Shown: one piece after another, positions 12,788 to 32,921 of the stretch
How the letters are laid out: every line of letters begins with the position of its first letter
How positions within the stretch are numbered: the first letter of the stretch is position 1
Source: Thermoactinomycetaceae bacterium
GTDB lineage: Bacteria; Bacillota; Bacilli; Thermoactinomycetales; Thermoactinomycetaceae
DNA: 64,000 bases
Assembly: GCA_025449975.1 (NCBI GenBank)
Contig: JANWIG010000054.1
Location: 1-64,000 of the forward strand
Direction: 5' to 3'
Notes under the pieces: generated by a model
What the model was told of the DNA's origin: nothing
The model's input: only the letters and a program-made list of their open reading frames with translations
Databases searched by the model: none
Position numbers and translations under genes: made by a program

Positions 12788-13204
12788 TTATTTGAGTTTA
12801 TTAAAAATATCTAATAAAATCTGTAGCTCTTCGGTGGATAAGTCATTAAACTTTTCTTGGAAGTATTTTCGTTTTTTCTTATTGATTCGCTGGATTTTGG
12901 AGGATCCTTCTTTGGTTATATATACTTCTACTACTCGTTTGTCTAATGAAGAACGTTGTCTTCGAACCAAGTCTTTTTTTTCCAGTTGATCGACAACATG
13001 GGTAATATGACTGACAGATACATGAAAGTCTTGTGCTAATTCCGTAATGGTCTGGGGATTTTTGATCGATAAGCAGTAAAGAAGGTTGTCTTCAGCACCC
13101 GTAATGTCATCTTGTAGAATTCGTTTCATATCTTTTTTAAACTCACGAAAGACACGTAAAAGGGTCTTCTCAAGTTCAAGGAAGATTTTCATTCGTGTTG
13201 CCAT
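12788..13204 (-). CDS. MarR-family transcriptional regulator
   Basis: 138-residue winged-helix regulator. The wHTH segment reads TITELAQDFHVSVSHITHVVDQLEKKDLVRRQRSSLDKRVVEVYITKEG (wing DKR, given here as its key residues in context), flanked by helices that make the dimer. The frame stays open to 13243, but none of the ATGs (13243, 13204, 13192) has a nearby SD. A consensus TTAGGAGGT lies at 13339-13331, and an inverted repeat between it and ATG 13204 would bring the two together, so I choose ATG 13204. The promoter and a palindromic operator lie upstream. Ligand and regulon are unknown; no co-transcribed gene is present. Confidence 0.85.
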   Translation of the reverse strand: MATRMKIFLELEKTLLRVFREFKKDMKRILQDDITGAEDNLLYCLSIKNPQTITELAQDFHVSVSHITHVVDQLEKKDLVRRQRSSLDKRVVEVYITKEGSSKIQRINKKKRKYFQEKFNDLSTEELQILLDIFNKLK

Positions 13205-13339
13205 GGTGATGTTGATTGCTAAAGATATAGACAGCGGATTCATAACAAAAATAGAATCATGATGATAATGTTATAATTTCATCGAGTAATTTATAAAACT
13301 AGGTTGTCTATATGCTGATTAGCAATAAAAACCTCCTAA
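13202..13339 (-). promoter_or_regulatory. Structured marR leader bridging a distant SD to the start codon
   Basis: SD TTAGGAGGT (13339-13331), then TTTT, then TTAGCAAT/GTCTATAT (+ strand 13319-13326 and 13306-13313), which pair with ATTGCTAA (13215-13222) and ATATAGAC (13225-13232). That is 8 + 8 bp around a small internal loop, enclosing 73 nt. The 3' arm ends 10 nt before ATG 13204. Folded, the SD-to-ATG spacing is about 14 nt instead of about 126. A 5-codon ORF (TTG 13325, TAG) could also use the SD. Confidence 0.6.
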
Positions 13340-29981: not shown

Positions 29982-30326
29982 TCAATAGGATCGGGCTTTC
30001 GAAGGAATAAATAGGTCGACAATACCGACGACCAAAGCAGTGATCATTACGCCAAAGAAGGTGATTTTCACGTTTGGGATGATCGATGCAGCAATAAAGA
30101 TGACACTCGCCGTGACAGCAAAGCCTACGACCCCTCGGGCAAAGGGAGAGATATCTTTAACGATGGTCGATTCGATGATCCATCCCAAAACAGCAATGAC
30201 GATCGAGGCAAAGAAAGAGACCCAGAAGCCAATGAAAGAGAAACCGGGTACCAAAGTGCTAACCGTCCATAACATCGATACTGCGACAATAAATCGAGAG
30301 ATATGACGAACCCAAGTCCATAGCAT
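29982..30326 (-). CDS. Small four-helix membrane protein (phage-holin-like superfamily, YvlD type)
   Basis: 114 residues, four hydrophobic segments (about 8-27, 33-55, 63-85, 88-107) separated by short charged turns; ends in DLFIPSKARSY. Proteins of this kind are annotated as 'phage holin family', but there is no prophage here, and a chromosomal membrane-stress role as for YvlD is as likely. ATG 30326 has no nearby SD; a consensus AGGAGGTG lies at 30421-30414, joined to the ATG by a long inverted repeat (see leader). The family members start at the same place, so I do not think the gene is 5'-truncated. Confidence 0.7.
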   Translation of the reverse strand: MLWTWVRHISRFIVAVSMLWTVSTLVPGFSFIGFWVSFFASIVIAVLGWIIESTIVKDISPFARGVVGFAVTASVIFIAASIIPNVKITFFGVMITALVVGIVDLFIPSKARSY

Positions 30327-30421
30327 TTAGAAATGACTGTTACGAAAACATACAGGAAGATGTCCATTTCATTCTGAAGAAGCATTTTGGATGTTTGTTT
30401 CAGTAACAGTCTGCACCTCCT
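30324..30421 (-). promoter_or_regulatory. Structured leader bridging a distant SD to the 4-TM protein start
   Basis: Minus strand: AGGAGGTG (30421-30414), CA, then GACTGTTAC (30411-30403) pairing perfectly with GTAACAGTC (30343-30335), extended after one mismatch by GAAACA with TGTTTT. Then ATTTCTAA and ATG 30326. About 15 bp of stem enclose roughly 45 nt. Folded, SD to ATG is 10 nt; unfolded it is 87 nt. Confidence 0.65.
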
Positions 30422-30560
30422 ATTCTAAAAAAAGACTAATCTTATTTTGTGCAGATGATGCGGATTTAGTCAGAAATAGTGGATGGTAAAAAGACATGAT
30501 ATAATGATGAAGATTGTGATGGGGATCCATCGGACTACATAAGAACGGGGAGATCGAGGC

Positions 30561-32921
30561 GTGAATGATTGGACACTCAAGTCATTGGAATATAATCAAG
30601 TAAAAGAGATGGTAAAGCAATATACATCCTCTTCTTTAGGTCAAGAAAAAATAGAACAAATTACGCCTTCAGCCGATTTCTTAGAAGTGGAAAAACGTTT
30701 GCAAGCAACAGCTGAAGGGATCGATTTACTTCGGTTAAAAGGAGATATTTCCTTAGGTGGAATTCGTGATATAAGAAGTTTTGTCAATCGAGCGCAGAGA
30801 GGAGGCATGTTGTACGAAAACGAGCTGTTGGATATTGCTAGTACGATTCGGTCGTCACGGAAAAGCAAGTCCCTCTGCAAATCGATTTCGGAAGAAGAAG
30901 CAGCACTACCGATTGTAAGAGGACTGCTGGAGCGATTGATCGATTTAAGTGAAATAGCTGATCGGATTGAAAGTTGTATTGATGAGACAGGGGTGGTGCT
31001 CGATCGAGCAAGCGTGTCGTTAGCGAGAATCCGGCAAGAGATGAATCGGGTCAAACAAGCGATCAATCAGACATTGCAACAGATAATTCGTAACACGAAT
31101 TATCAAAAAATGATGCAAGAACAGATTATTACCAAGCGACAGGATCGTTATGTTATTCCGATCAAGCAGGAATACCGGGGAGCGTTTCGCGGGATTATTC
31201 ACGATCAGTCCTCCTCGGGAGCAACCTTGTTTATTGAGCCTGAATCTGTTGTCCAATTAAATAATCGCTTAAAAGAGTTGGAGCTAAAAGAAAAGAGCGA
31301 AATCGAACGGATCCTAAGGGAGTTGACCGTCGCCGTAGCAGAAGAAGCCGAAGCATTGATGATCAATACAGAAGTGTTGGCAGAACTGGACTTTATTTTT
31401 GCTAAGGCTTATTTTGCCAAAGCGATGCAAGCGGTCGTTCCAAGATTATCATCGGATCGATCATTAAAATTAATGCAAGCTCGCCATCCGTTGATTCCTG
31501 CTGAGCAGGTGGTTCCGATTGATATTCGGATGGGAAATCCGTACCAAGCGATCGTGATTACTGGTCCCAATACAGGTGGGAAAACGGTTTCGTTAAAAAC
31601 CGTTGGTTTGCTTGCTTTGATGACGCAAACGGGCTTTCCGATTCCAGCACAAGAAGATAGCGTCATTCCGGTATTTAGTGGTGTTTTTGCTGATATCGGG
31701 GACGAACAGAGCATTGAGCAGAATCTGAGTACCTTTTCAAGTCATATGACCAATATCATCACCATCTTAAATCAACTTGATGAGCAAAGTTTGGTTTTAT
31801 TTGATGAGCTAGGAGCAGGAACCGATCCGACTGAGGGAGCGGCATTGGCAATCGCCATTTTGGAACAGATCCTGTCATTGGGCTGCTCAGTGATCGCTAC
31901 GACGCATTACAATGAGTTAAAATTATTTGCCCATTCCCATCCGCTAGCTGTCAATGCCAGCATGGAATTTGATGTGGAAACATTAAAGCCAACTTATCGC
32001 CTTTTGATCGGTGTCCCGGGAAGAAGCAATGCCTTTGCCATTTCAAAGCGCTTGGGTTTACCTGATTCGATTATTCAAGCAGCGAAATCTCATTTATCTC
32101 AAGATGAAAGTCAGCTAGAAGAGATGATCAAATCGCTCACTACGGAACGAAAAGCGGCTGAAGTGGACCGCCAAGAAGCGGCGCGTCTACGGGAGGAAGC
32201 AGAGCAATATACTAAAGAGCTTGAGAAAAAGCTAAAACGGTTGGAAGAAGAAAAAGGAAAGATCAAAGAGAAAGCGCGTCAAGAGGCAATGGGGATTGTC
32301 CGAAAAGCAGAACGAGAGGCGGAAGAAGTGCTAAAACAGTTGCGCGAATGGATGAAGCAGGGTCCGCAAAAAGTGAAAGAACACCAGCTCTTTGAAGTGA
32401 AAAAAAGGCTAGAAAAGGCTATGCCAAAAACAAAAGTTTTAAAGCCAGTAAGAGAGAACTCGGCTCGTAAGCAAAAATTGAAGTTAGGGGATGAAGTTTA
32501 CGTTCCTCAGTTTCAACAAAAAGGGACGATTGTCGAGGTGCTCGGAAAAGGGGAGTATCAAGTTCAGATCGGGATCATGAAGATGAAGCTTCACCGAAAT
32601 CAACTGGAAAAACGGGAAAGCTCGCAAAAGAAGGAAACACAAAAAATGGTTACGTCGCTGCGGAAGCAATCTTTGGATGTAAAACCGGAGTTGGATTTAC
32701 GTGGAAAGTTGGTGGAAGAAGCGATTGTTGAAATTGACCAATATCTTGATCGTTCTTTGCTAGCTGGATTAAAAAGGGTCTTTTTGATTCATGGGAAAGG
32801 AACAGGAGCCTTGCGCACCGGTGTTCAAGGATTCTTAAAGACCCATCGTCATGTTCAGTCGTTTCGCCTTGGTTCCCATGGAGAAGGGGGAGCGGGTGTA
32901 ACGGTGGTAGAATTGCGATAA
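30561..32921 (+). CDS. mutS2: Endonuclease MutS2
   Basis: 786-residue MutS2, an ATPase that acts on branched DNA and, in B. subtilis, splits collided ribosomes (RqcU). Core and clamp domains come first, then the ABC ATPase with Walker A GPNTGGKT (335-342) and the signature/Walker B region STFSSHMTNI...LVLFDELGAGTDPTEGAAL, a long charged coiled coil (about 515-630), a KOW-like segment and a C-terminal Smr nuclease domain (LDLRGKLVEEAI, HGKGTGALR). GTG 30561 follows GGGGAGA. In B. subtilis polX precedes it; that gene is absent here. Confidence 0.95.
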   Translation: MNDWTLKSLEYNQVKEMVKQYTSSSLGQEKIEQITPSADFLEVEKRLQATAEGIDLLRLKGDISLGGIRDIRSFVNRAQRGGMLYENELLDIASTIRSSRKSKSLCKSISEEEAALPIVRGLLERLIDLSEIADRIESCIDETGVVLDRASVSLARIRQEMNRVKQAINQTLQQIIRNTNYQKMMQEQIITKRQDRYVIPIKQEYRGAFRGIIHDQSSSGATLFIEPESVVQLNNRLKELELKEKSEIERILRELTVAVAEEAEALMINTEVLAELDFIFAKAYFAKAMQAVVPRLSSDRSLKLMQARHPLIPAEQVVPIDIRMGNPYQAIVITGPNTGGKTVSLKTVGLLALMTQTGFPIPAQEDSVIPVFSGVFADIGDEQSIEQNLSTFSSHMTNIITILNQLDEQSLVLFDELGAGTDPTEGAALAIAILEQILSLGCSVIATTHYNELKLFAHSHPLAVNASMEFDVETLKPTYRLLIGVPGRSNAFAISKRLGLPDSIIQAAKSHLSQDESQLEEMIKSLTTERKAAEVDRQEAARLREEAEQYTKELEKKLKRLEEEKGKIKEKARQEAMGIVRKAEREAEEVLKQLREWMKQGPQKVKEHQLFEVKKRLEKAMPKTKVLKPVRENSARKQKLKLGDEVYVPQFQQKGTIVEVLGKGEYQVQIGIMKMKLHRNQLEKRESSQKKETQKMVTSLRKQSLDVKPELDLRGKLVEEAIVEIDQYLDRSLLAGLKRVFLIHGKGTGALRTGVQGFLKTHRHVQSFRLGSHGEGGAGVTVVELR

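Follow-up and report, generated by a model that had tools for sequence, protein, structure and literature searches.

The locus examined here raises the question of how a gene could be translated when its Shine-Dalgarno sequence (SD) stands almost 90 nt from its start codon, and of where the hairpin that fills the space between them came from. The gene lies on the minus strand of a 64,000-nt stretch of DNA from a Thermoactinomycetaceae bacterium (contig JANWIG010000054.1; hereafter the window) and was assigned to PF04020 (Phage_holin_4_2) with an E-value of 3e-10. The features of this locus, and of a second one in the same window, are collected in the table below.

A distant SD and a hairpin before the PF04020 gene

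Read along the minus strand from 30421 to 30324, AGGAGGTG (30421-30414) is followed by CA and the 5' arm of the stem, and the 3' arm is followed by ATTTCTAA and the ATG (30326-30324), which begins 89 nt after AGGAGG and 87 nt after AGGAGGTG and has an in-frame stop codon (TAA) immediately 5' of it. The outer stem consists of 9 bp between GACTGTTAC (30411-30403) and GTAACAGTC (30343-30335). After one mismatch GAAACA (30401-30396) pairs with TGTTTT (30350-30345) over six pairs, one of them G-U, and three further pairs lie beyond a second mismatch. The remote SD and the spacer-filling stem described in the initial annotation were confirmed at these exact coordinates, as was the additional pairing after the mismatch, and its statement that the SD has no usable start of its own also held, with no ATG, GTG or TTG at a usable distance. 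A CTG 6 nt behind AGGAGG was considered as a start and rejected, since the conserved arm begins with this codon and the frames it opens are not conserved.

Of 2000 dinucleotide shuffles, 3 gave an equally good inverted repeat in the spacer and 1 had it in the same framing position; the total folding energy was ordinary (z -1.0). The stem was predicted to be formed from 37 to 65°C with pair probabilities of about 0.95-1 except at the outermost pairs, and the predicted fold with the stem formed leaves 6 + 10 unpaired nt and one helix end between SD and start. AGGAGG paired weakly with AUUUCU in the predicted folds, with the SD only about 31% unpaired at 55°C. The locus combines the features of a split ribosome-binding site, namely a distant SD, no nearer SD and a stem between SD and start. 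A promoter scan of 30300-30600 on both strands returned no site anywhere, upstream of the SD included, and is uninformative for that reason.

Features of the two loci in the window at which an SD, a hairpin and a start codon follow one another
Feature	Position	Strand	Remark
Shine-Dalgarno AGGAGG	30416..30421	-	contains AGGAG, the published TAM of IS607-family TnpB (PMC11061315)
Putative element remnant inserted between SD and start-codon spacer, ~79 nt	30337..30415	-	orthologues without insert
5' arm GACTGTTAC	30403..30411	-	conserved core CTGTTAC 30409-30403
Inner 5' arm GAAACA	30396..30401	-	family consensus AAACATAG
Inner 3' arm TGTTTT	30345..30350	-	family consensus CTATGTTTTT
3' arm GTAACAGTC	30335..30343	-	conserved core GTAACAG 30343-30337, the element right end
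Box CACAAAATAA	30442..30451	-	20 nt upstream of SD; 22 nt in T. daqui; short match, by eye
Downstream gene, 114 aa, 4-TM PF04020 (Phage_holin_4_2) protein	29982..30326	-	divergent from mutS2
Second element, SD	13332..13337	-	
Second element, 5' arm ATTGCTAA	13319..13326	-	
Second element, 3' arm TTAGCAAT	13215..13222	-	
Gene after second element, 138 aa, MarR-like by sequence	12788..13204	-	ATG 13204

Orthologues of the window gene were collected from many genomes by a protein search of relatives. The initial annotation had suggested checking whether orthologues keep the SD and the arms; nearly all of them, including those of Thermoflavimicrobium daqui and T. dichotomicum, have instead AGGAGG or a close variant at the ordinary distance of 5-9 nt from the start and no insert, and the element recurs before other genes. 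Relative to these orthologues the SD-start interval of the window species is longer by about 80 nt. The start codon itself is placed two codons farther upstream than in the orthologues, and the new ATG may therefore have come with the insert. The presence of the CACAAAATAA box at a similar distance upstream in T. daqui suggests that the window SD is the ancestral one. One orthologue (L023, genome G025) has AGGGAGGG about 60 nt from its start, where a 7-bp stem or an upstream ORF of 5 codons is possible; its predicted fold did not contain the stem. In four PF04020 orthologues (L012, L015, L018, L030) a CACACTAA/CATACTAA box recurs upstream of the SD and may be a promoter of the sporulation type.

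A family of hairpins between SD and start codon

A 444-kb scan of the same genome for AGGAGG, a stem and a start codon identified two more real genes, one DUF423-like and one TlpA-like; the arrangement was also found at the TlpA orthologues of both sister species and was absent at their DUF423 orthologues. Over 1.36 Mb of the window genome about 20 genes displayed it, the best matches having arms CTGYTACT..AAACATAG and CTATGTTTTT..AGTARCAG and loops of 5 to about 140 nt, and across the window genome, T. daqui and T. dichotomicum it precedes dozens of genes, with the shared arms CTGYTAC...GTARCAG. These genes, named from the N-terminal sequences of the ORFs, include pyrG, hup, serS, an Asp23-like gene, fba, purA, odhB, hemL and tdk as well as rpmB, proA, gpsA, trxB, ahcY and tlpA, and the starts that bear the element have no SD of their own.

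The combination GGAGG-N3-9-CTGYTAC occurred 17, 21 and 21 times in the three genomes of the genus compared to 5, 3 and 4 times for the reversed control, a three- to seven-fold enrichment that was less clear in some other genera of the family and was not seen across the remaining order and class. The partner arm GTANCAG was located 3-14 nt before an ORF start in 58 of the 78 distinct matches examined. Arm-to-start distance had a median of 8, compared to a mode of 7 for ordinary GGAGG-ATG spacing in the window genome, the agreement that insertion immediately behind AGGAGG would produce. Outside the SD-start setting the strict arm pattern was, in the window genome, at background level and no commoner than control arms. 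A search across relatives with the exact pattern CTGTTACN{3,33}GTAACAG was discarded: it did not rise above its control, since many loops exceed the length allowed and the middle pair is variable. When the window insert was compared with its own genome by BLAST, a single copy was returned, which at first argued against a mobile element; this result is explained by the copies sharing only their arms. Neither the insert nor its 16-nt arm gave anything beyond chance matches among phages, plasmids and viral contigs. A covariance model (R1) built from 38 copies, with the window genome left out, placed the window copy as the sole locus in the 64 kb (E = 2e-4 on the gene's strand, 4e-5 on the other strand); in 1.36 Mb it returned mostly SD-start elements, with one match (L280) outside such a setting.

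Evidence for pairing came from the positions that are free to vary. Among 58 elements the free pair Y4-N was C-G in 42, U-G in eight, U-A in seven, C-A in none and another combination in one. This covariation (Fisher 2e-5; shuffle p 0.0002) counts as support and not as proof since related copies are not independent, and it was measured in a sample partly selected for pairing, with the outer bases fixed by the search pattern. For 55 of 59 elements the 7-bp foot of the stem was predicted to form at 55°C with a probability of more than 0.9; pairing beyond it is not general and is kept only in part. At hup the loops of the orthologues in three species measure 54, 9 and 8 nt, with an unchanged foot.

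A second and older SD-hairpin-start element was observed in the window at 12788-13337 (minus strand). In T. dichotomicum the orthologue of its MarR-like gene (77% identical) is preceded, at the same position, by a well-preserved element, and the arms read TTGCTAA/TTAGCAA in the window compared to CTGTTAC/GTAGCGG in T. dichotomicum, two pairs having changed on both sides.

Full-length copies and their relation to IS607-type elements

Matches without a near partner arm were longer copies. Eight of these, from T. dichotomicum and from a genome of another genus (G012), are 78-95% identical to one another over about 290-330 nt and contain the Rfam family RAGATH-18 (RF03064; E = 1e-9 to 6e-15), with the arms enclosing this core. 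RAGATH-18 is the guide-RNA scaffold of IS607-family TnpB; measurements in 22 strains gave AGGAG as the TAM in 18 and GAGGG in four (PMC11061315). AGGAG being also the core of the Shine-Dalgarno sequence, such elements would be expected to land between SD and start. In agreement with this, AGGAGG stands directly 5' of the left end TRRTTAACAG in six full-length copies (TAGTTAACAG and close variants, one with C for T); the left end lies about 84 nt upstream of the searched motif and played no part in finding the copies. In five of the six, the flanks joined across the copy read AGGAGG, a spacer of 7, 7, 8, 9 or 10 nt and the beginning of a long ORF; the sixth (L371) is not clearly before a gene.

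The full-length copies L368, L371 and L399-L402 have AAAGGAGG-RAAA a second time, immediately 5' of the terminal stem, where it looks like an SD of the element's own. The stem of full-length copies would join this inner SD to the start, and only the short copies, which have one SD, the window's included, seem to use the original one. Before ahcY-like genes a full-length RAGATH-18 element in G012 (L402) has its counterpart at the same place in the window genome as a 71-nt hairpin (L082:7677-7745).

The window copy has the terminal arms and AGGAG next to its left end, whereas its full-length relatives have both AGGAG before the left end and the RAGATH-18 core; an Rfam scan of the window gave no match to that core (RF03064) or to any other family at the hairpin at gathering score. 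As the core has been lost, we filed the window copy as a remnant and not as a member, and we infer its descent from a full-length element from its arms, its position and the intermediates. Judged from sequence, an IS607-type origin of the hairpin is well supported. A search for TnpB motifs in part of the DNA of the genus found none. The window's own genome also contains a Group II intron domain (RF00029; L090:16620-16709).

Outside the genus, RAGATH-18-like DNA was found on plasmids and phages of Anoxybacillus, Peptoclostridium, Finegoldia, Levilactobacillus, Clostridiaceae and others, adjoining TnpB or transposase genes in most annotated records. The right end lay 6-13 nt before an ORF start in nine of ten Firmicutes plasmid or phage loci, as AGTAGCAG in about half and as a variant in the rest, and AAGGAGG precedes the left end in Lactobacillus phage 521B. 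Elements of this IS607 type thus seem generally to land between SD and start. A complementary 5' arm next to an SD was not seen in the autonomous plasmid and phage elements examined, and this arm may be an adaptation of the non-autonomous copies. Autonomous IS607 TnpB elements (L451-L458) part genes from their SD by as much as 2 kb, an Anoxybacillus response regulator being one example.

A proposed split ribosome-binding site, its rivals and known systems

The reading we prefer, at a probability of roughly 0.8, is that the window hairpin is a decayed non-autonomous element of IS607 type (TnpB/RAGATH-18) at an SD, the terminal stem of which brings SD and start codon together. An element of this kind sits directly 3' of AGGAG, and its insertion would fall between the SD and the start codon. 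Its two ends would base-pair in the transcript (CTGYTAC...GTARCAG, extended by inner pairs), leaving the insert as a loop, and the ribosome would initiate on a split binding site of which the two parts are brought near each other by the stem. After insertion the core could be lost and the loop would be free to vary, and the terminal stem would persist, being needed for translation of the gene. Rescue of translation by the stem is suggested by its retention, by compensatory changes, by free variation of the loop and by the essential genes concerned. The proposal of the initial annotation that the stem joins the remote SD to the start gains support from this comparison, through recurrence, preserved arms and compensatory changes; the origin of the hairpin as a degenerate element had gone unseen. 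Somewhat less firmly, we favor the wider view that a class of TnpB-associated elements targets the SD and has evolved ends which can base-pair in the transcript, full-length copies also having an inner SD, so that the insertion is silent for translation even before essential genes. Such an insert would in effect be an intron bridged by the ribosome-binding site without splicing, and over time many split ribosome-binding sites could accumulate per genome.

An origin from the same element might be accepted while the stem is denied any use in translation, the insertion having weakened or silenced the gene and left a neutral fossil. At the window locus this fits a gene that is not obviously essential, orthologues without the insert and an SD that is partly paired in the model, but the same arrangement is kept before pyrG, hup, serS, fba, purA, hemL and rpmB, and most bacteria cannot do without several of these; with hup loops that differ between orthologues, from 54 to 9 nt, while the arms stay, and with compensatory changes in the arms, we regard a fossil as unlikely. 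Low probability attaches to a regulatory RNA hairpin, riboswitch-like or protein-bound, that is not a mobile element and sets access to the SD for a regulon. The stem foot is indeed conserved in sequence as well as in pairing, the hairpin is present at many genes and AGGAGG can pair with AUUUCU in the model; the genes are however functionally unrelated, the loops are unrelated in both length and sequence, no Rfam cis-regulatory family matched at the hairpins, and near-identical copies of 290-310 nt with defined ends, whose flanks restore a normal SD, speak of mobility.

Transcription could also start inside the insert, the ATG being read from a leaderless or SD-less mRNA to which the upstream SD is irrelevant. 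A mostly unpaired start-codon region in the predictions would suit this, but the CACAAAATAA box upstream of the SD is common to T. daqui at a similar distance, and the same explanation would need to apply to dozens of genes; we find it improbable. The least probable account has the insert removed from the mRNA like an intron, making SD and start adjacent. The spacing that would result is workable, but RAGATH-18 is a TnpB guide scaffold and no known splicing ribozyme (PMC11061315), and the short copies without a core keep just a simple hairpin.

If insertion followed by bridging through the terminal stem is the correct reading, a mobile element would neutralize its own insertion at the level of translation by RNA folding. 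It would suggest a reason for the IS607-type TAM AGGAG, the SD core being a landing site that tolerates a looped-out insert, and the family would offer a natural set of dozens of split ribosome-binding sites from which to gauge the SD-start separation that can be tolerated when a stem joins the two. Annotation of genomes from this bacterial family would, moreover, readily go wrong over the start sites and SDs of many genes.

The family resembles the IS607 TnpB/RAGATH-18 elements of ISFba1 type (Ren et al., 2024, PMC11061315) in its right end ...AGTAGCAG with a conserved 3' flank, its position directly 3' of AGGAG, the RAGATH-18 of its full-length relatives and the arrangement of right end and start. 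It differs in that the copies of the genus, at full length about 290-312 nt, lack TnpA and TnpB and have an SD inside the element and a 5' arm that can pair with the right end, and in that most of them, the window's included, lack the RAGATH-18 core. A term search of the text of PMC11061315 gave no mention of ribosome-binding sites or start codons, and a search of an incomplete literature collection for earlier reports linking IS607/TnpB insertion with the SD gave one unrelated match. In bacteriophage T4 a stem between SD and AUG shortens the spacing from 27 to 11 nt in gene 25 and from 22 to 5 nt in gene 38, and mutations that weaken the stem reduce initiation (PMC3014915). As in these two genes, the stem of the family would shorten an over-long spacing, here by prediction; unlike their small local hairpins it is formed by the two ends of a mobile element, bridges 21 to more than 300 nt and is met at dozens of genes. 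Palindromic elements and MITEs are likewise short, dispersed palindromic insertions that the host tolerates within genes. The present family, unlike these, sits at the SD, apparently because its target motif is the SD core, and would derive from a TnpB guide-RNA element.
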